A DNA stretch of 32,015 bases from a bacterium (GTDB taxonomy: Bacteria; Patescibacteriota; Minisyncoccia; Moranbacterales; UBA2206): NCBI GenBank assembly GCA_021777675.1, contig JAJYDG010000010.1:1-32015 (forward strand), in the 5' to 3' direction. This document shows, piece after piece, positions 19,302 to 29,033 of the stretch. The translations under genes and the position numbers were made by a program. Position 1 is the stretch's first letter. Every line of letters starts with the position of its first letter. Below the pieces are notes generated by a model. It made no database searches and was not told the origin of the DNA. It worked only from the letters and a program-made list of their open reading frames with translations.

Positions 19302-20342
19302 ATGAAAAACTTAAATCAAATATCAAATAAAATTGACAAACAAAATTTACGCGCAGTTATTATGGAATCTCCCAAGCAATTCGCGCAAGGCTTTGCCTTA
19401 ACGAAAAACATCCAAATTAAAGGCAATTTTGATTCACTTTGCGTTTCCGGAATGGGCGGTTCATCGCTTCCAATTGATCTTTTGCGAACATATGCTGATG
19501 ATTTATTTGAAAATAATTCGAAAAAAAACCAACCATTGGAAATAATTCAAAATAGATCATATAACCTTCCGGCAAAAACGTTATCTAGGAAATGTTTACA
19601 TATTTTTTCTTCTTATTCCGGAAACACGGAAGAAACAATATCTTCGCTGGAAGATGCCCTTGCAAAAAAAATTCCATCCCTGATAGGAATTACTCACGGG
19701 GGAAAATTACAAGAACTTTGCGCAAAAAATAATTTGCCTTGCGTCATTTTGCCGGAAGTTATTCAGCCACGCTATGCTACCGGATATTTCTTCACAGCCA
19801 TCTTGCAAATACTTATCAATTTAAAATTACTAGAAGATACCTCGAAAGAAATTTCAATCAGCGCTAAAAAGCTAGAAAAAAGGATGTCGGATTTGGAAAA
19901 GCGGGGTAAAATTATTGCCAAAAAATTACAAGGAGAAACACCCGTCGTTTATTCTACTGATAAATATAAGGCAGTGGCGATGGTTTGGAAAATAAAAATA
20001 AATGAAAACAGCAAAACACCCTGTTTCTACAATTGTTATCCAGAATTGAATCACAATGAAATGGTTGGTTATACACTGCCTCAGGCAAAATTTCATATCA
20101 TCGCCCTAATTGATCCAAGAGAAAATTCGCAAATCACAAAACGCATACTAATCACCGCCAAATTGCTCAAAGCCAAAAAGATTGATACGACTCTTTTTGA
20201 ATTAAATGGAGCAAACAACTTTGAAAAAATGTTTGATGCGCTTCTTCTCGGCGATTGGATTTCCTATTATCTGGCATTAAATTACAAACAGGATCCCACT
20301 CCGGTCGCTATGGTAGAGAATTTTAAAAAAATGCTTATTTGA
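19302..20342 (+). CDS. Bifunctional phosphoglucose/phosphomannose isomerase
   Basis: It interconverts glucose-6-P or mannose-6-P with fructose-6-P. The 346-residue product has two SIS-type halves with SGMGGSSLPIDLLR (sugar phosphate loop), IFSSYSGNTEETIS, the catalytic PELNHNEMVG, and an end of DPTPVAMVENFKKML. These motifs mark the archaeal-type PGI/PMI family, which is common in CPR. It lies 17 bases after the peptide-binding protein gene, so the two are probably co-transcribed. Its stop codon lies inside an inverted repeat and within the promoter of the next leader. Confidence 0.93.
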   Translation: MKNLNQISNKIDKQNLRAVIMESPKQFAQGFALTKNIQIKGNFDSLCVSGMGGSSLPIDLLRTYADDLFENNSKKNQPLEIIQNRSYNLPAKTLSRKCLHIFSSYSGNTEETISSLEDALAKKIPSLIGITHGGKLQELCAKNNLPCVILPEVIQPRYATGYFFTAILQILINLKLLEDTSKEISISAKKLEKRMSDLEKRGKIIAKKLQGETPVVYSTDKYKAVAMVWKIKINENSKTPCFYNCYPELNHNEMVGYTLPQAKFHIIALIDPRENSQITKRILITAKLLKAKKIDTTLFELNGANNFEKMFDALLLGDWISYYLALNYKQDPTPVAMVENFKKMLI

Positions 20343-20358
20343 CGCTTTTTGTCAAATA
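20336..20358 (+). repeat. Inverted repeat across the isomerase stop codon
   Basis: TATTTGAC (20336-20343), a 7-base loop, and GTCAAATA (20351-20358) form a perfect 8-bp repeat over the stop codon. No T-run follows, so it is not an ordinary terminator. It overlaps the -35 box of the T-box promoter and could be an operator or simply 3'-end protection. Confidence 0.45.
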
Positions 20359-20367
20359 GACTAGAAT
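20339..20367 (+). promoter_or_regulatory. Promoter of the T-box leader
   Basis: TTGACG (20339-20344), 17-base spacer, TAGAAT (20362-20367), with predicted start near 20374. The start lies only about 113 bases before the T-box motif, so the leader is compact. The -35 box overlaps the last codons of the isomerase gene. Confidence 0.6.
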
Positions 20368-20373
20368 ATACAT

Positions 20374-20597
20374 AGTTAAAAAAGTTTGAAATATTGACAC
20401 GGCCCAACCATCTGTCGAGTTTCTGCCAAAAGCGGGAAAAATGGCGCTTAAAAAGTGTTTTGTTGGTTTTTTTAACCAATAAAAAATTTGGGTGGAACCG
20501 CGAGGTTAATGGAAAGAAAAAGACCCCGTCCCAAAAATTTTGCACACTTTCGCGCTTTGCGCGTTGTTGTTGAAATTTTTGGAACGGGGTTTTATTA
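20374..20597 (+). promoter_or_regulatory. T-box riboswitch (probably threonine) with terminator
   Basis: A tRNA-sensing leader. The T-box core TTTGGGTGGAACCGCG is at 20487-20502. Antiterminator: TTTGGG (20487-20492) pairs with CCCAAA (20530-20535), the 7-base bulge TGGAACC follows, then GCGAGGTT (20500-20507) pairs with GACCCCGT (20522-20529). The competing terminator stem is 20523-20540 with 20573-20590 (17 bp, one mismatch), then a U-rich tail. A stem III-like hairpin, TTGGTT/AACCAA with a 5-T loop, is at 20463-20479. A short helix TTGAC/GTCGA (20394-20398/20414-20418) encloses a loop holding ACC (20407-20409), a possible threonine specifier. Canonical stem I is not evident. The next plus-strand gene is thrS, 320 bases on. 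Confidence 0.88.
20523..20597. terminator. Bidirectional intrinsic terminator of the T-box
   Basis: A 17-bp stem (ACCCCGTCCCAAAAATTT with its partner at 20573-20590) has a loop containing a nested CGCGC/GCGCG hairpin. On the plus strand it is followed by TTTTATT. On the minus strand the same stem is followed by CTTTTTCTTT, so it can also end the antisense zinc-ribbon transcript, whose stop codon is at 20595. Confidence 0.85.
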
Positions 20598-20846
20598 CAG
20601 ATATGGGGCAGGATGATTGTTTTCCTCCCCACAAGCAGGGCAAATGCCCCGCAAAATAATCATCTCTCCTGCCGTGCATCTCTGCACGACAAAAAAAATT
20701 TCATAACAGCCACCCTGTAGAGTCGACAGCTCTCCACAGGATGGACATGCCCATTTCATTTCAATAGGCATGCATATTCTCCGTTGCAACACCTTGCAAC
20801 GACGTTTATTTAGAAAAAAATCTTTTGCATCTATCAATATCGCCAT
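20595..20846 (-). CDS. Small zinc-ribbon protein, antisense within the thrS leader
   Basis: I do not recognise a family. The 83-residue product has two CPxCGE knuckles, WACPSCGELS and GICPACGEENN, about 33 residues apart, which form a likely zinc ribbon. There are four further Cys (C17, C25, and those in GGCYE and QRCTA). The start is well supported: AAGGAG lies 7 bases before the ATG, one of the few clear ribosome-binding sites in the window. A perfect TTGACA-17-TATAAT promoter lies upstream. It lies on the minus strand between the T-box terminator and thrS, so T-box readthrough is antisense to it. The DNA is a chain of strong hairpins, so a structured RNA is an alternative or additional role. 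Confidence 0.65.
   Translation of the reverse strand: MAILIDAKDFFLNKRRCKVLQRRICMPIEMKWACPSCGELSTLQGGCYEIFFVVQRCTAGEMIILRGICPACGEENNHPAPYL
20607..20801. other. Run of five consecutive inverted repeats
   Basis: Five stems follow one another. (1) GGCAGGATGATT (20607-20618) with AATCAT...CCTGCC (20658-20673), enclosing GGGC/GCCC at 20638-20649. (2) CGTGCA/TGCACG, loop of 4 (20673-20688). (3) CCTGTAGAG (20714-20722) with CTCT..ACAGG (20730-20740). (4) CATGCCcATT with AATaGGCATG (20746-20772). (5) CGTTGCAA/TTGCAACG, loop of 4 (20782-20801). They cover almost all of the small zinc-ribbon ORF. They suggest a folded RNA on either strand, or a repeat-derived origin for this segment. Confidence 0.6.
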
Positions 20847-20873
20847 CTACTTTCTCCTTTTTTGGTTGTTAAT

Positions 20874-20902
20874 GTTACAAAAAATTGATTTTTTATTATA
20901 AT
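20874..20902 (+). promoter_or_regulatory. Proximal promoter of thrS
   Basis: GTTACA (20874-20879), 17-base spacer, perfect TATAAT (20897-20902), with predicted start near 20909, only about 8 bases before the thrS ATG. It would give T-box-independent expression. Its -10 box overlaps the -10 box of the leftward promoter, so the two probably compete for polymerase. Confidence 0.6.
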
Positions 20903-20923
20903 TTAAATTTAAATTTATGTCAA
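20895..20923 (-). promoter_or_regulatory. Consensus promoter of the antisense zinc-ribbon gene
   Basis: Reading leftward: perfect TTGACA (20918-20923), exactly 17 bases, perfect TATAAT (20895-20900). The -35 box overlaps the thrS start codon and the -10 overlaps that of the thrS promoter. The predicted start near 20888 leaves a leader of about 40 bases with a good Shine-Dalgarno sequence. It is the best-matching promoter seen in the window. Confidence 0.8.
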
Positions 20924-22731
20924 ACAAAAAAACCAATATGGACATAACGACTTTGCGCCATTCAACCTCGCATGTTTTGGCGGCAGCGGTTTTGGAGATG
21001 TTTCCCGAAGCGCGCTTTGCCATCGGACCGGCGATTGAAAATGGATTCTATTATGATTTCGATCTGCCAAGAACACTCATTCCTGAAGATTTGCTGATCC
21101 TCGAAGAGAAAATGCAAGAAATCATCAAGGCTAATTATGCTTTTGAAAGAGCGGAAATTTCCATTACCGAGGCGAGAACGGATTTCGAAAAATTGAATCA
21201 AAACTACAAAGTTGAATTAATCAACGAACTGGAAAAAAACGGCAATAAAAAAGTTTCTGTATATAAATCCGGTCCGTTCGTTGATTTATGTTCCGGTCCA
21301 CATTTGAATTCGACCGGAGAAATTTCCGCCGACGCATTCAAGCTCACAAAAATTTCCGGCGCTTATTGGCGAGGAAACGAGAAAAATAAAATGCTTCAGC
21401 GAATTTATGGTGTAGTCTTCACAAGCAAAGCGGAGTTAAAAAATTATATCCACTTGCTTGAAGAAGCGGAAAAAAGAGATCACAGAAAACTCGGAAAAGA
21501 ATTGGATCTGTTTCATATTGATGAAAAAGTTGGAATTGGTTTGCCTTTATGGCATCCCAAAGGAGCTTTGCTTTGGAGAATAGTTGAAGATTATTGGTAT
21601 AGTGAACATTTGAAAAATGGTTATGAACTTGTTCGCTCACCGCACATTGGAAACAGAATACTCTGGGAAACTTCCGGACATTGGGGATTTTATAACTCAA
21701 GTATGTATCCGCCAATGGAAGTCGGACAAACATTGGAAGACAGGCAAAACAACATTAAACCAAAGGAATCGGAAGAATTTTTGTTAAAACCGATGAACTG
21801 CCCCTTTCATGTGCAAATTTATAACAATAATTTAAGATCTTATCGCGAATTCCCCTTCAGATGGGCTGAATGTGGCACAGTTTATCGCTTTGAAAAAAAA
21901 GGTGAGCTTTCCGGGCTGACTCGTGTGCGCGGATTCACTCAAGATGATGCGCACATCTTTTGTCGCGCAGATCAAGTTGAAGAAGAACTGAAAAAAGTTA
22001 TCGATTTTATTCTTCACATATTCAAATCTTTTGGATTTGATACTGATTTGATTAATGTCTATTTGTCACTTCGCGATCCGAAAAATAAGAAAAAGTATGC
22101 CGGAAATGATACGGGTTGGGAATTTACCCAAGACATATTAAAAAAAATAGCAACCGAAAAAAAATTGAATTTTATTGAAGAAGAAGGTGAAGCGGCTTTC
22201 TATGGTCCAAAGCTGGATTTTAAATTGAAAGATGTTTTGGGTCGAGAATGGCAATGCTCAACACTTCAATTTGATTTCAATCTTCCGGAAAGATTTGATA
22301 TGACATTTATAAACAATAAAGGCGAAAAAGAAAGACCCTATGTTTTGCATAGAGCGCTTTTTGGTTCTTTTGAAAGATTTTTAGCATTACTCATTGAACA
22401 CTACGCTGGCGCATTCCCAACTTGGCTCTCCCCTGTTCAAGTGGCGATCATTCCCATTTCGGAAAAATTCAATGAATACGCCCATTCTGTAGAGACGCAA
22501 TTTATCGCGTCTTGCATTCGCACCTCAGTCGACAATTCCAACGAATCCCTCGGCAAACGCATCCGCCTAGCCGAAAAACAAAAAATTCCCTACATTTTGG
22601 TTGTGGGAGAAAAAGAAATGACTGACGAAACAGTTGCAGTGAGAAAAAGAGGTGAAGAAAAAAAACAAGAAGTATTGAAAGTTTCCGAGTTTTTGGAAAA
22701 AGTTAAAAAAGAAATTGATGAGAAAAAATAA
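20917..22731 (+). CDS. thrS: Threonine--tRNA ligase (no TGS domain)
   Basis: It charges tRNA-Thr. The 604-residue product starts straight at the editing domain (RHSTSHVLAAAV with H15 and H19; CSGPH with C125 and H129). The class II catalytic core follows with zinc ligands C295 (KPMNCPFH), H346 (TQDDAHIF) and H478 (VLHRALFG), plus WETSGHWGFY and RFEKKGELSGLTRVRGF. The anticodon-binding domain follows. The N-terminal TGS domain of about 60 residues found in E. coli ThrS is missing. The start at 20917 lacks a Shine-Dalgarno sequence; Met8 (20938) is an alternative. It heads thrS-miaB-miaA. A palindrome at 22493-22512 lies in the anticodon-binding part. Confidence 0.96.
   Translation: MSNKKTNMDITTLRHSTSHVLAAAVLEMFPEARFAIGPAIENGFYYDFDLPRTLIPEDLLILEEKMQEIIKANYAFERAEISITEARTDFEKLNQNYKVELINELEKNGNKKVSVYKSGPFVDLCSGPHLNSTGEISADAFKLTKISGAYWRGNEKNKMLQRIYGVVFTSKAELKNYIHLLEEAEKRDHRKLGKELDLFHIDEKVGIGLPLWHPKGALLWRIVEDYWYSEHLKNGYELVRSPHIGNRILWETSGHWGFYNSSMYPPMEVGQTLEDRQNNIKPKESEEFLLKPMNCPFHVQIYNNNLRSYREFPFRWAECGTVYRFEKKGELSGLTRVRGFTQDDAHIFCRADQVEEELKKVIDFILHIFKSFGFDTDLINVYLSLRDPKNKKKYAGNDTGWEFTQDILKKIATEKKLNFIEEEGEAAFYGPKLDFKLKDVLGREWQCSTLQFDFNLPERFDMTFINNKGEKERPYVLHRALFGSFERFLALLIEHYAGAFPTWLSPVQVAIIPISEKFNEYAHSVETQFIASCIRTSVDNSNESLGKRIRLAEKQKIPYILVVGEKEMTDETVAVRKRGEEKKQEVLKVSEFLEKVKKEIDEKK
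22493..22512 (+). repeat. Palindromic element inside thrS
   Basis: AGACGC, loop AATTTATC, GCGTCT: a perfect 6-bp stem preceded by TGTAG. It encodes part of SVETQFIASCIRT in the anticodon-binding domain, in frame and without changing the expected length much. The form resembles small REP-like elements (GAGACGC...GCGTCTC) that tend to occur between genes. Whether it is repeated in this genome cannot be seen here. Confidence 0.5.
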
Positions 22732-22734
22732 GGT

Positions 22735-24003
22735 ATGCTTTCAAAAAAATATTTCATCAAAACATTCGGTTGTCAAATGAACATTTCAGACTCCGAAAGA
22801 ATAGCTGGAATTTTGGAAAAAAATAAATTTAAACCAACTTCAGAAATTACTAAAGCCGATTTGGTTGTTTTTAACACCTGTGGGATTCGCCAGATGGCGG
22901 AAGACAGAGCCTATGGGCAAATCCATAATTTAAGAAAAAATAACCCAAAAATAAAAATTGTTCTCACTGGTTGTCTTGCTAATCGCGAAGATGTGAGGAA
23001 AAAATTAAAAAATAAAGTGGATATTTTTTGTGAAATAAAAAATATCGAAACTATTATTGAAACACTTGGTTTTTCTGTTTGTCACTATCTGGACATTGTG
23101 CCGAAATATTCGCTTGCGCACTCGGTGCTTGTGCCAATTATGACCGGTTGCAATAATTTTTGCTCATATTGTGTTGTGCCTTATGCGCGCGGACGAGAAA
23201 TTTCGCGACCAGCCACAAAAATTATTACTGAAATAAAAAATCTAATCAAAAACGGTTGCAAAGAAATCACACTTTTGGGACAAAATGTGAATTCATATAA
23301 TTATAAAAAAATAGTCTTCCCTGAACTGCTCCAAAAAATTGAAAAAATTCCTGGAAACTTCTGGATTCGCTTCATATCATCGCATCCAAAAGATTTTTCG
23401 AGTGAACTCATTGAGACAATCGCTAAATCAAAAAAAATTTGCGAACAAATTCATCTGCCGATCCAATCCGGATCGAATAAAATTCTTGCCACCATGAATC
23501 GCAAATATACCGCCGAGCATTATTTGGATTTAATCAAAAAAATTCGCATCGCTTTTAAGAAATATAAAACCGACATTCCCTGCTCCATTACATCAGATAT
23601 AATTGTCGGTTTTCCCGGTGAAACAAAAAAAGATTTTCTGAAAACAGCTACGCTCATGAAAAAAGCACAATATGACTTGGTCTATTTTGGCCAGTTTTCT
23701 CCTCGCCCAGGAACGGTTGCCTATAAAATGAAAGATAATGTTTCCAAAGGCGAAAAATCTCAAAGAGAAAACACTCTAAATGAAATATTAAAAAAAACTG
23801 CCCTTTCCAATAACCAAAAATATCTCGGAAAAACATTGGAAGTACTTATTGATTCGAAAAAAAACGGATTATATTTCGGCCGAACGCGCTCGGGAAAAAA
23901 TGTGAAAATAATCAGTACTCGAAAAAATTTAATTGGTCAATTTGCGAAAGTTAAAATTATCAAAGCCAATATATGGAATCTCGAAGGAAAAACAATAAAA
24001 TAA
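22735..24003 (+). CDS. miaB: tRNA-2-methylthio-N6-dimethylallyladenosine synthase MiaB
   Basis: Radical-SAM methylthiotransferase acting on A37 of tRNAs already modified by MiaA. The 422-residue product has the N-terminal UPF0004 cluster cysteines C13 (TFGCQMN), C49 (FNTCGIR) and C80 (LTGCLA). The radical-SAM motif is C139, C143, C146 (GCNNFCSYCVVPYARGRE). ITLLGQNVNSY, HLPIQSGSNKIL and a C-terminal TRAM-like domain follow. It starts 3 bases after thrS and overlaps miaA by 31 bases. MiaA and MiaB as neighbours make one modification pathway. Confidence 0.95.
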   Translation: MLSKKYFIKTFGCQMNISDSERIAGILEKNKFKPTSEITKADLVVFNTCGIRQMAEDRAYGQIHNLRKNNPKIKIVLTGCLANREDVRKKLKNKVDIFCEIKNIETIIETLGFSVCHYLDIVPKYSLAHSVLVPIMTGCNNFCSYCVVPYARGREISRPATKIITEIKNLIKNGCKEITLLGQNVNSYNYKKIVFPELLQKIEKIPGNFWIRFISSHPKDFSSELIETIAKSKKICEQIHLPIQSGSNKILATMNRKYTAEHYLDLIKKIRIAFKKYKTDIPCSITSDIIVGFPGETKKDFLKTATLMKKAQYDLVYFGQFSPRPGTVAYKMKDNVSKGEKSQRENTLNEILKKTALSNNQKYLGKTLEVLIDSKKNGLYFGRTRSGKNVKIISTRKNLIGQFAKVKIIKANIWNLEGKTIK

Positions 24004-24878
24004 TTGTTATTCTCGGACCAACTTCTTCCGGAAAATCTTCTGTTGCCATCAAATTAGCACAAAAATTTAATGGTGAAATAATCTCGGCCGATAGTCGACA
24101 AATTTATCGCGGAATGGACATTGGAACAGGCAAAATCACCAAAGACGAGCAATTACTCGCAAAACATTATATGCTTGACATTGTCAATCCTAAAACCAAT
24201 TTCAGCGTGGCACAATTCAAGAAAAAGGCCGATAAAATTATCATGGATATTCTAAAACGCGGGAAACTGCCCATTATTTGTGGTGGGACCGGTTTTTGGA
24301 TTAAGGCACTCGTTGATAATATAATTTATCCGGAAGTAAAACCTGACTGGAAATTACGAAATAAATTGCAAAAAAAATCTGCCACAGAGCTTTTTGCGCT
24401 ACTTCAAAAACTCGATCCGACGCGCGCAAAAAATATCGACTCCAAAAATCCTGTGCGTCTCATTCGAGCGATTGAAATTTGCAAAACGCTGGGCAAGGTT
24501 CCGCATAGCGTTACTTGCCTATCAAATACTAATTTTGACTTTTTACAAATCGGCATTTCTCTGCCAAAAGAAAAACTGCACGAAAATATTAAAAAACGCT
24601 TAGAACAAAGATTTGATGAAGGAATGGTCTCTGAAGTGGAAAGATTACACAAAAAAAATAAAATCAGTTGGGAAAAAATGGAAAGTTTCGGATTAGGCTA
24701 CCTTTGGATTGCCAAGTTTTTGCAAAAACAACTCCCGCATGAGGAGTTGTTTGAAAAAATCTATCAAGCGGAAAGAGATTATGCTAAACGACAGCTGACT
24801 TGGTTTGGAAAAGACAAACGAATTCTTTGGCTAGAAAATTATTCAGCAATAGAAAAAGAAGTGGAAAGATTTTTTTAA
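23973..24878 (+). CDS. miaA: tRNA dimethylallyltransferase MiaA
   Basis: It transfers the dimethylallyl group to A37 of tRNAs reading UNN codons. The 301-residue product has the P-loop VILGPTSSGKSS (about 12-23), ISADSRQIYRGMDIGTGK, ICGGTGFWIKAL, NPVRLIRAIEI and the C-terminal YAKRQLTWFGKD. The start at 23973 lies inside miaB in another frame (31-base overlap), giving a short basic leader MESRRKNNK before the P-loop. No better start exists. A 10-bp palindrome lies at 24726-24752. A strong terminator follows the gene. Confidence 0.95.
   Translation: MESRRKNNKIIVILGPTSSGKSSVAIKLAQKFNGEIISADSRQIYRGMDIGTGKITKDEQLLAKHYMLDIVNPKTNFSVAQFKKKADKIIMDILKRGKLPIICGGTGFWIKALVDNIIYPEVKPDWKLRNKLQKKSATELFALLQKLDPTRAKNIDSKNPVRLIRAIEICKTLGKVPHSVTCLSNTNFDFLQIGISLPKEKLHENIKKRLEQRFDEGMVSEVERLHKKNKISWEKMESFGLGYLWIAKFLQKQLPHEELFEKIYQAERDYAKRQLTWFGKDKRILWLENYSAIEKEVERFF
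24726..24752 (+). repeat. Perfect palindrome inside miaA
   Basis: AAACAACTCC (24726-24735), 7-base loop, GGAGTTGTTT (24743-24752): a perfect 10-bp stem in coding sequence, encoding about QKQLPHEELFEK. It is 1.3x the stem length of most hairpins here and lies 145 bases before the terminator. It may be a small mobile palindrome carried in frame, or chance. Confidence 0.5.
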
Positions 24879-26219: not shown

Positions 26220-29033
26220 TCAGTTTGCTTCTTGCCATTTTCCGCTATTACAAGGACAGTTGACATTGTGCTCACTACAATTTAGCAAGCAATCGACTCC
26301 GCAATTATTTGAATCAACGCATTGGCTATATTGTGTTCCGCATTTATTACCATCACAGCTTGGAGATGTGCAACTAAAATTTGGGTTACAAGTCGGGGTT
26401 GGAGTTGGGGTTGGGGTTGGAGTTGGGGTTGGAGTTGGAGTTGGAGTTGGAGTTGGAGTTGGGGTTGGAGATTGAACTACACAATAACAACCATCGCAAA
26501 CAGTTCCATTGGCACAAGCACCCACTGCGCTAAAAGCCGGGTTACATTCACAAGGTTTTGTGCAAGAAGCGCCGCTCCATGTGGTCCCTGGGGGACAAGC
26601 ATAGCAACTACCCGTTCCGCAACATTCTCCGACAATCGGAATCGATCCATTATGAGAATCAAATGTTACGCAACCGCCAGAACAATTTTTCACACAAGCG
26701 GCCAACTCAACTGTGACAGTTACATCAAAAACTGCCGTTATCTGAGTTAATGTTCCTCCTGCTAAAACTGAATTTAATAAATTATATTTAAAAAAAGAAA
26801 GTTTGTTTTCTGTATTAACCCCTCCAAAGCCAGTTCCATTATCCTCCAAATTACCTGTTAATACGCAAGTATAAATTCCAGGTGAATCAAATCTAATTTG
26901 AAAGGCATCCCCTTGATGTTTTCCAATAACCGCATATCCCGGTTGAGTATAAAAATATTTTTTATTGATCAATGCCGGCTGGTGATTATTGGAATTATTG
27001 GTATTTTTTGCGCAAATCAACTCAACATCAGAAACATTTGATAAATCCCATTTAACCACTCCAATATCCCCTGGATGATATACGCTTTTATCAAATTCTA
27101 ATTTTCCATAAGGCGCTTCGGCTATTTTTTCTCCTTTATAATAGTTTGTTATATGACTAATAGTCTCACTAACTGCTTCATCGCTATTGACATTATAAAA
27201 TATATCCGCAGTATTATAATCAAAGTTTCCTTCGCCCCTAGATGGTCCGGCGCAATACGGCTGAACACCGCCAGAATTCTCTCCTGTTATACAAGCCTTA
27301 AAAGAAACAGAGTTATTTGATGACGCCGCATTACCCGCACTCCAAGTACCATTCGTTCTAACTGTGCAATCTCTTGCACTCTTAAAGTCCTGATCACCTC
27401 GATAACTATCATTAATATTTGCCCAACTATTTGTTGGTGACGCATTATTTTTAAACGCTATCAATGTAGTATTACCGTCATGCTGGTTACATTCTTTAAG
27501 GCTTGCAGATCCGCTATAGAAACCAATTATCGCCTCTCCTGGACTATACACACTATTATCTAAACTTATAGCATAATTGAAACTTCCCCAATAATCATTT
27601 CTTAGTTGTGTTTTAGACAACGTTATTGCGTCAACATTTTCTCCTTTCATTATCAACCCCCCTCCCAATAAAACTAATAATAGAAATAATTTTGTTATAT
27701 TATTGTTCTTTTTCCTTGCTTGATGTCGCATTCTAAAAATAATTGCAAGCGATACAAACAAGAGCAGAAGAATGAAAATAATTAAAACTGTTTTGGTATT
27801 AACAGCTGATTTGACTTGCTTTAAATTCTTGGATTGATCGACTAGAGTTTGATTATCCTTCTCAAAAGTAAAGGTTTTTTGATCCAATATTTTGTTTTGA
27901 TCGTTTTTTAAGCTAACCGTTGCAATGGGATTTTGGCAGTTATTAATGGCTTTAAGATTGATTTCTGTTTTGAATTGTGATTGATCCAAATTTTGCGTAT
28001 ATTCATTGATACAATCTTTCTTGTTTTGATCAGTAATGATCAAGCTTAAGTTGACATTAAAAGAGCCATTGGTGTCAAAATAGAGAGCGGCTTTAAGCTC
28101 ATCCCCTTTTTGATAACCGATTTTATCCAAATCAAACTTTTGAATCGTGGCTGACTCCCCGGCAATAACATAATGTACATCAATAGCTTGGGCGACTTTG
28201 GTTTGATCAAGTTGATTGCTGTTATAGAAATTGATCAGTGTATCATAGGCTTGCGGATCGGTTGGTTTTTTAATTGTAATGGTGATAGTCTTTTTTTCTT
28301 CCGGTTGCAAAGTAATGGGAGTTTCTTTTTGGGGTTGTCCGAGCTGATCGCCAAAGACGGAACGGGGAAAAGTTATTTGTGTCGGATAGATTGTTTTGGC
28401 TTCTTTGAAATGACTGATGGCATCACAATTTAATTTCAGGGTTTCACTGTTTTTGAGCGATACGCCTTGCATTAAAGTATATTTTTTATCTTGAGCCTCT
28501 CCGTCAATTTTTAGCGCGCAAGAATTTTGATCGACTTCCAGATATTCTCCATTGCCGGTTAATGTGATTGGGTCTTTTAATTTGAAAGCAGCCAAAGGCA
28601 AACCGCTTTCATTTTTGGCAATGAGCCAAAGATCAAAATTGCCGGATAAATATTCGGGAGCGGTATAGGTGAAGATTTTTTGAATGGAGTTTTTGCCTTC
28701 GACGGAAAGAGTGTCATCGGTGTAGATTTTTTCATCTGCTAACTTATCGCCCCCAATCAGTTGCACGCCATAGCGGATACCGGATTCGCTTTGAGGAAGA
28801 TTATTTTCCATGCGAAAATAGATTTGGAATATATTGTTTTTTTGAGAAGTGACAAGCGGATTTCTGAAATTAATATCGGCGATAATAGTTGCTTGATTGG
28901 AAGAAGGAGCTGGTTGAGTCTGAGCAGTTATTGGTAAATTTGACGGGATAGATGTGCTGGAAGCTTGCACTGTAAAAGCAAACATTCCCCATGTAAGAAG
29001 CACGCTGAGTAAGATGTTTTTTTTGTTTTTCAT
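26220..29033 (-). CDS. Large two-part surface protein with Cys-rich end and Pro-Thr linker
   Basis: I do not recognise a named family. The 937 residues read: signal peptide (1-24, ending VQASS); beta-rich extracellular region (about 45-405); membrane helix (about 412-432, TVLIIFILLLLFVSLAIIF); short basic loop RMRHQARKKNNN; second hydrophobic segment (about 446-462) that looks like a signal peptide ending ENVDA; a domain starting TLSKTQLRNDYWGSFNYA shared with the right-edge paralog; a second beta domain; Cys-rich EGF-like modules (CCGTGSCYACPPG, CDGCYC); a linker of 13 Pro-Thr pairs; and a Cys-rich end CNSGKWQEAN. The basic loop between the helices suggests both large parts are outside. It looks like a fusion of two secreted proteins. 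It follows the 167-aa gene by 14 bases. Confidence 0.85.
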   Translation of the reverse strand: MKNKKNILLSVLLTWGMFAFTVQASSTSIPSNLPITAQTQPAPSSNQATIIADINFRNPLVTSQKNNIFQIYFRMENNLPQSESGIRYGVQLIGGDKLADEKIYTDDTLSVEGKNSIQKIFTYTAPEYLSGNFDLWLIAKNESGLPLAAFKLKDPITLTGNGEYLEVDQNSCALKIDGEAQDKKYTLMQGVSLKNSETLKLNCDAISHFKEAKTIYPTQITFPRSVFGDQLGQPQKETPITLQPEEKKTITITIKKPTDPQAYDTLINFYNSNQLDQTKVAQAIDVHYVIAGESATIQKFDLDKIGYQKGDELKAALYFDTNGSFNVNLSLIITDQNKKDCINEYTQNLDQSQFKTEINLKAINNCQNPIATVSLKNDQNKILDQKTFTFEKDNQTLVDQSKNLKQVKSAVNTKTVLIIFILLLLFVSLAIIFRMRHQARKKNNNITKLFLLLVLLGGGLIMKGENVDAITLSKTQLRNDYWGSFNYAISLDNSVYSPGEAIIGFYSGSASLKECNQHDGNTTLIAFKNNASPTNSWANINDSYRGDQDFKSARDCTVRTNGTWSAGNAASSNNSVSFKACITGENSGGVQPYCAGPSRGEGNFDYNTADIFYNVNSDEAVSETISHITNYYKGEKIAEAPYGKLEFDKSVYHPGDIGVVKWDLSNVSDVELICAKNTNNSNNHQPALINKKYFYTQPGYAVIGKHQGDAFQIRFDSPGIYTCVLTGNLEDNGTGFGGVNTENKLSFFKYNLLNSVLAGGTLTQITAVFDVTVTVELAACVKNCSGGCVTFDSHNGSIPIVGECCGTGSCYACPPGTTWSGASCTKPCECNPAFSAVGACANGTVCDGCYCVVQSPTPTPTPTPTPTPTPTPTPTPTPTPTCNPNFSCTSPSCDGNKCGTQYSQCVDSNNCGVDCLLNCSEHNVNCPCNSGKWQEAN
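26395..26472 (-). repeat. Hexanucleotide repeat encoding a Pro-Thr linker
   Basis: Thirteen tandem 6-base units (GGGGTT or GGAGTT on the plus strand, the last degenerate) encode 13 Pro-Thr pairs between two Cys-rich modules. Slippage in whole units would change linker length without a frameshift. The two unit types alternate irregularly, with a run of five identical GGAGTT units at 26431-26460. Confidence 0.9.
27239..27337 (-). repeat. Repeat block B, copy 1 (paralog of 31653-31751)
   Basis: About 99 bases nearly identical to 31653-31751, with a few substitutions clustered at the left end of the minus-strand coding sense (near GENSGG versus GESSGG). It encodes SVSFKACITGE..GGVQPYCAGPS. It is separated from block A by a divergent stretch of about 100 bases in both copies. 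Confidence 0.85.
27438..27610 (-). repeat. Repeat block A, copy 1 (paralog of 31843-32015)
   Basis: 173 bases that match 31843-32015 with a single difference that I can see (CTGG versus TTGG at about 27483/31888). It encodes the start of the shared domain, QLRNDYWGSFNYAISLDNSV onward. Such identity between otherwise divergent paralogs points to recent duplication or gene conversion. Confidence 0.9.

Follow-up and report, generated by a model that had tools for sequence, protein, structure and literature searches.

The segment at positions 20388-20593 of the plus strand, upstream of the threonyl-tRNA synthetase gene thrS, is very probably a T-box riboswitch specific for threonine, of an ultrashort kind that occurs in Patescibacteria and controls transcription. 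It sits between a phosphoglucose-isomerase-like gene and thrS, on a contig of an 879-kb genome; the window, meaning the whole stretch of DNA that we analysed, is 32,015 nucleotides long (Table 1). The anatomy of the element, its specificity, its homology to other thrS leaders and its mutually exclusive terminator are indicated by sequence, covariation and the tRNA match. The element is a true T-box, and what is new about it is its architecture and its host. The window leader is apparently one member of a large, phylum-wide and apparently undescribed family that breaks several textbook T-box rules; in the open-access literature, we found no description of a T-box for CPR or Patescibacteria. A preliminary description of this DNA had already read the locus as a T-box, and the checks that it named (Rfam search, conservation of the ACC triplet and covariation) gave positive or mostly positive outcomes.

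Table 1. Features at and around the thrS leader, in window coordinates, with the evidence for each.
Feature	Position	Strand	Basis
Upstream gene, bacterial phosphoglucose isomerase C-terminal SIS-domain protein	19302-20342	+	Pfam PF10432, E = 7.4e-42
Promoter-like site TTGACG-17-TAGAAT	20339-20367	+	Consensus scan, 10/12; overlaps end of upstream gene; predicted
Ultrashort Stem I	20388-20423	+	Sequence; covariation at 9/9 pairs among 21 leaders
Specifier ACC (Thr codon), followed by A20410	20407-20409	+	Invariant in 21 aligned thrS leaders; genome has tRNA-Thr(GGU)
Stem IIA/B-like pseudoknot	20424-20449	+	Covariation in relatives; comparison with L172
RRRxG (AAGUG, 20453-20457) and Stem III (20458-20484)	20453-20484	+	Sequence, fold; Stem III covaries in relatives
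Antiterminator	20487-20535	+	Rfam alignment, model R1 alignment
Intrinsic terminator with U-tract	20519-20593	+	MFE fold, sequence
ORF83, antisense small CxxC-containing protein, 83 aa, SD-like AAGGAG	20595-20846	-	ORF list; orphan
Possible private thrS promoter GTTACA-17-TATAAT	20874-20902	+	10/12 match; AT-rich region; predicted
ORF83 consensus promoter TTGACA-17-TATAAT	20895-20923	-	12/12 match; overlaps thrS start codon
thrS, threonyl-tRNA synthetase lacking a TGS domain; predicted target gene	20917-22731	+	Pfam PF00587, PF03129, PF07973
MiaB-like radical SAM protein gene	22735-24003	+	Pfam
MiaA-type IPP transferase gene	23973-24878	+	Pfam

The T-box core of the window, GGGTGGAACCGCG, the antiterminator with its 7-base bulge and the competing terminator, all three claimed in the preliminary description, were located in the sequence. 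Transcription is predicted to start at about position 20374, leaving ~119 nt to the bulge, compared with the ~113 bases earlier given for the distance between transcript start and core. Stem I consists of a 5-bp lower helix (20388-20392/20419-20423), a kink-turn with a 3-nt AUU bulge and the GA dinucleotides 20396-20397 and 20417-20418, and a 4-bp upper helix (20399-20402/20412-20415) that closes a 9-nt apical loop, CCCAACCAU, at 20403-20411. The loop carrying ACC had been recognized before, but as enclosed by a 5-bp helix; the closing helix has 4 bp, and a second helix, of 5 bp, lies below the kink-turn. Stem II with its S-turn is absent, and only a pseudoknot-like segment of ~26 nt spans the distance from Stem I to RRRxG, likewise in the thrS relatives. 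In the window, the first strand of this pseudoknot is UGCC (20424-20427) and its second helix is AAGC/GCUU, and the pseudoknot is imperfect because a G-C pair that is invariant in 18 relatives is G-A here.

Downstream of this segment, the RRRxG-Stem III-AA arrangement that characterizes RF00230 is present, as is the 7-nt UGGNACC bulge that separates helix A1 from helix A2, here UGGAACC (20493-20499). Helix A1 pairs UUUGGG with CCCAAA, and helix A2 (20500-20505/20524-20529) has a G-U pair at its base. As in transcriptional class I T-boxes, the terminator excludes the antiterminator, with the strand 20524-20535 common to both. The MFE fold of the leader including the terminator has -70.7 kcal/mol (z = -3.65), whereas minus the terminator its stability is unremarkable (z = -0.81). 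Because Stem I does not appear in it as in the covariation model, the MFE fold computed for the leader alone was rejected as a poor guide to the functional structure.

An Rfam search, as proposed in the preliminary description, returned a significant T-box (RF00230) match of 31.7 bits (E = 3.8e-5 in a local search, 9.8e-6 genome-wide) that nevertheless stayed below the gathering score of 93 bits, at which the search of the window gave no match. This gathering score is a detection threshold and not a structural feature; in a control search of 14 named genomes, five had a match, which was over threshold in only two of those five. Apart from the Rfam score threshold, every sequence feature tested fits membership of the T-box family. 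Other sub-threshold Rfam families at the locus (U4atac, SpR19 and several miRNAs) had chance-level scores and were rejected.

We built an independent covariance model, R1, from 18 thrS leaders of other genomes, leaving out both the window and its sibling. The window was the sole R1 match in the host genome, at 70.8 bits (E = 8.8e-18 genome-wide), and across the class the model matched 53 of 384 genomes with scores up to 120 bits. Twenty-four further R1 loci were read, one of which (L238) repeats a Wolfebacteria leader already used, and the downstream gene was thrS wherever it was readable. Given that R1 saw the RNA alone, this association with thrS is informative. At L250 (G418 contig 3), the order is Thr T-box, NYN-like gene and thrS, representing an operon with an intervening gene. 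On thrS loci of Clostridia and Atribacteria, where leaders have a long Stem I, R1 scored at most 30 bits, and on the bacterium L094 it scored 53 bits.

The nearest thrS sequences were those of a same-genus MAG (88%) and a Wolfebacteria-labelled MAG (66%), followed by other Paceibacterota/Parcubacteria. Loci from the window's own family were identical to loci of Ca. Moranbacteria CG23 35_22 and Parcubacteria M10-OD1-1, the latter bearing Patescibacteria group in its taxonomy line. Given this family-level identity, the host is patescibacterial, which bears out the earlier suggestion of a likely CPR bacterium. Among the best 30 thrS loci from 55 related genomes, a T-box core was found upstream of thrS in 23; one (L172) retained just the 5' half of the leader, and six had no core. 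The ACC triplet was conserved, as the preliminary description had anticipated for a genuine leader, in 21/21 aligned thrS leaders, and the kink-turn showed invariant or almost invariant G and A residues. In the Stem I helices of these 21 leaders, 96.3% of cells were paired (slid controls ≤46%), double changes occurred in all nine pairs, and 36 cells were double-changed versus 10.6 after shuffling. The whole-element alignment, made from 18 leaders with the window and its sibling excluded, contained 33 pairs spread over seven helices, the pseudoknot among them; 93.0% of cells were paired versus 77.0% when shuffled and ≤48.0% when slid, the slid controls being the fairer yardstick because the leaders are related and shuffles overstate significance. 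Double changes were present in 28 of the 33 pairs, and Stem I, Stem III and the antiterminator each gave strong evidence of the covariation that had been called for.

The specifier matches the regulated gene as in RF00230, with ACC coding for threonine ahead of thrS, and the A of the UGGAACC bulge is complementary to U73, which is carried by all three tRNA-Thr found (GGU, UGU and CGU). The same genome has a second ultrashort T-box, before ileS, with AUC in its apical loop. T-box matches were detected in 128 of 380 sampled genomes of the phylum, and from the positive genomes we drew 58 short leaders, in which the specifier and bulge code was read by eye. Among these leaders, the bulge was UGGAACC before thrS and glyS (U73), UGGCACC before aspS-type genes (G73 in tRNA-Asp and tRNA-Asn) and UGGUACC before ileS, valS and proS. 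The loop codons of short leaders were AUC, GUC, GAC or AAC, CCC, GGC and ACC, and in the other genomes of the phylum the loop codon and bulge base, as read by eye, fit the downstream synthetase for Ile, Val, Asp/Asn, Pro, Gly and Thr. An automatic finder of kink-turned Stem I detected 31 of 79 versus 9 of 237 shuffled; it worked for Thr and for some Gly, Ile and Asp leaders, and missed many with differing bulge or helix lengths, so that for genes other than thrS the match between specifier and gene was judged by eye (~20 leaders), with no formal statistic.

Several leaders deserve separate mention. Upstream of glyS, L160 and L163 are Gly T-boxes apparently reduced to a mini Stem I and the discriminator, without Stem II or pseudoknot, with Rfam matches of 107-117 nt. 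The leaders L119 and L158, of aspartate--tRNA(Asn)-type ligases, and L154, of a bacterial aspS, have AAC (Asn), not GAC, as their loop codon, which hints at tRNA-Asn as the tRNA sensed. Short T-box leaders also precede proB- and proC-looking genes at L114 and L161, where the gene assignment is based on the protein start only.

Neither accepted T-box subclass fits the window. One defining feature of the transcriptional class I fails, namely a long Stem I with the IDTM elbow-binding module, since Stem I is here 36 nt with a 9-nt loop. Two features of the translational class II fail: Stem II with an S-turn is missing from the window, and in place of SD sequestration adjoining the gene there is a terminator, with the thrS start ~320 nt downstream. 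The short kink-turned Stem I with its specifier in the apical loop, also a class II feature, is present. For transcriptional T-boxes, a long Stem I with IDTM is generally needed, an ultrashort Stem I is a feature of translational T-boxes, and a truncated Stem I without Stem II hardly binds tRNA, the published ultrashort T-boxes needing Stem II (PMC7583486). Judged by sequence, the patescibacterial thrS leaders combine transcriptional control with an ultrashort Stem I and no Stem II, contrary to these rules. By analogy, a G-C-rich codon may compensate for the missing Stem II, as has been argued for glycine (PMC7583486).

One of the nearest known parallels, the actinobacterial ileS T-boxes with ultrashort Stem I of N. 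farcinica and M. tuberculosis, shares with the window the apical-loop specifier, the short kink-turned Stem I, the lack of IDTM, the IIA/B pseudoknot, the RRRxG-Stem III-AA discriminator and the 7-nt bulge (PMC7583486). However, those T-boxes are translational class II, act by SD sequestration and need Stem II, whereas the window leader is patescibacterial and specific for Thr, ends in an intrinsic terminator and does without Stem II. The likeness to them proposed in the preliminary description therefore holds for the architecture, but not for the window's being a transcriptional attenuator without Stem II, nor is it an isolated case. The canonical transcriptional thrS T-box of Firmicutes (RF00230) has in common with the window the UGGAACC bulge, the ACC specifier, the competition between antiterminator and terminator and the thrS target, while its long Stem I, side-bulge specifier and Stem II are absent from the window. 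The glycine T-boxes of glyQS are likewise transcriptional, without Stem II and with strong codon-anticodon pairing, but in them a long Stem I still holds on to the tRNA elbow, whereas Stem I of the window leader measures ~36 nt.

The window represents the classical platform, in which the 3' strand of the antiterminator doubles as the 5' arm of the terminator. In most thrS relatives, where the core is AGUGGAACC(N)CC, the terminator is instead formed by RRRxG and the 5' strand of Stem III paired with a downstream strand that enters U-tracts, and in the MFE fold A1, the bulge and A2 stay inside this enclosing terminator. Such an enclosing terminator was seen in most of L173, L178, L179, L182, L185-L188, L191, L192, L194, L196, L198-L200 and L236-L261. 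In 13 aligned leaders, its 18 pairs were 95.7% paired, with double changes in four, and Stem III and the antiterminator also covary in enclosing-type leaders; the base of A2, a G-U pair in the window, is mostly closed by G-C or U-A there. For 36 loci classed as enclosing by exclusion, native strands paired at -18.4 versus -12.5 kcal/mol for swapped strands (Wilcoxon p = 2.6e-9, uncorrected for relatedness), and L246, L099 and L186 among them did not show the enclosing pairing. The alternatives of the switch must here be Stem III with the purine string on one side and this terminator on the other. We found no description of such a platform in the open-access literature. On balance, patescibacterial Thr T-boxes seem to constitute a distinct minimal class (~118-148 nt: kink-turned mini Stem I, pseudoknot and discriminator) that is transcriptional without elbow contact or Stem II, with most relatives using the new enclosing-terminator platform, in which the antiterminator hairpin stays intact inside the terminator and the tRNA would have to hold Stem III together with the purine string, and not helix A1.

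Based on these features, we infer that the window leader binds tRNA, senses its charging and terminates transcription in vivo. The nascent leader RNA would bind tRNA-Thr, with ACC in the apical loop of the kink-turned mini Stem I pairing with the anticodon GGU and UGGA of the bulge pairing with the tRNA 3' end UCCA. Uncharged tRNA-Thr would stabilize Stem III and the antiterminator, block the terminator and let transcription continue toward thrS; charged tRNA would not be accommodated, so that the terminator would form and transcription would stop. The downstream tRNA-modification genes (22735-24878, plus strand) are possibly co-transcribed with thrS. Farther along the window, a 937-aa ORF on the minus strand (26220-29033) had no Pfam match.

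The window copy itself probably still controls thrS, but this is less certain because ORF83 and the possible thrS promoter intervene. The gap of ~320 nt between the terminator and the thrS start contains ORF83 on the opposite strand, and the predicted private promoter of thrS would yield a near-leaderless mRNA. Moreover, the closest sibling (L033/L172) lacks everything from window position 20445 to 20883, including the core, the terminator and the ORF83 region, while its promoter and ACC-bearing Stem I are kept and abut the thrS promoter region; by sequence, the T-box was apparently deleted naturally in this genome. The preliminary description had seen neither the antisense ORF nor the possible thrS promoter nor the partial loss in the sibling, and these weaken the case for continued thrS control by the window copy. 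Together with the broken pseudoknot pair, otherwise invariant, they indicate that this copy may be decaying, and a reading in which thrS has moved to its own promoter in this genus, leaving a vestige homologous to the functional Thr T-boxes of relatives, is unlikely although it carries appreciable weight. Against it, the core, bulge, antiterminator and terminator remain intact and still complementary, as do Stem I and the promoter-like site of the leader, and a congener (L176; G385) has a complete T-box copy close to thrS. In the relative L183, too, small antisense ORFs separate thrS from a T-box core that is intact. At that locus, positions 334-799 hold two other antisense small CxxC-containing ORFs, and given these inserts, the gap seems to attract such ORFs.

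ORF83 is convergent with the leader and the terminator hairpin is common to both; on the minus strand, too, the hairpin is followed by a T-rich stretch and could therefore terminate ORF83 as well. Its product may be a zinc ribbon, as the Pfam match to this fold was weak and below cut-off, and no homologue was found among the 54 related genomes searched, so that ORF83 was rejected as an ancestral part of the locus. This arrangement, with the consensus promoter of ORF83, would also suit a leader that controls ORF83 instead of or besides thrS, with read-through under Thr starvation producing antisense RNA or polymerase collision across it. We regard this as very improbable, given that ORF83 is unique to the host genome among the relatives searched and that the T-box is kept with thrS where ORF83 is missing. 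Least probable of all, to the point of being negligible, is that an ordinary terminator of the upstream gene resembles a T-box by chance: the sub-threshold Rfam score would agree with it, but it is refuted at the level of homology by the R1 match, the covariation in relatives, the matching tRNA discriminator base and the conserved position before thrS.

With a terminator but neither a long Stem I nor Stem II, this covarying family allows the published rules to be tested on very small RNAs. Rfam thresholds miss most patescibacterial T-box regulation. Patescibacteria are epibionts without most amino-acid synthesis, and our results suggest that amino-acid-responsive control of aminoacyl-tRNA synthetases operates in these organisms.
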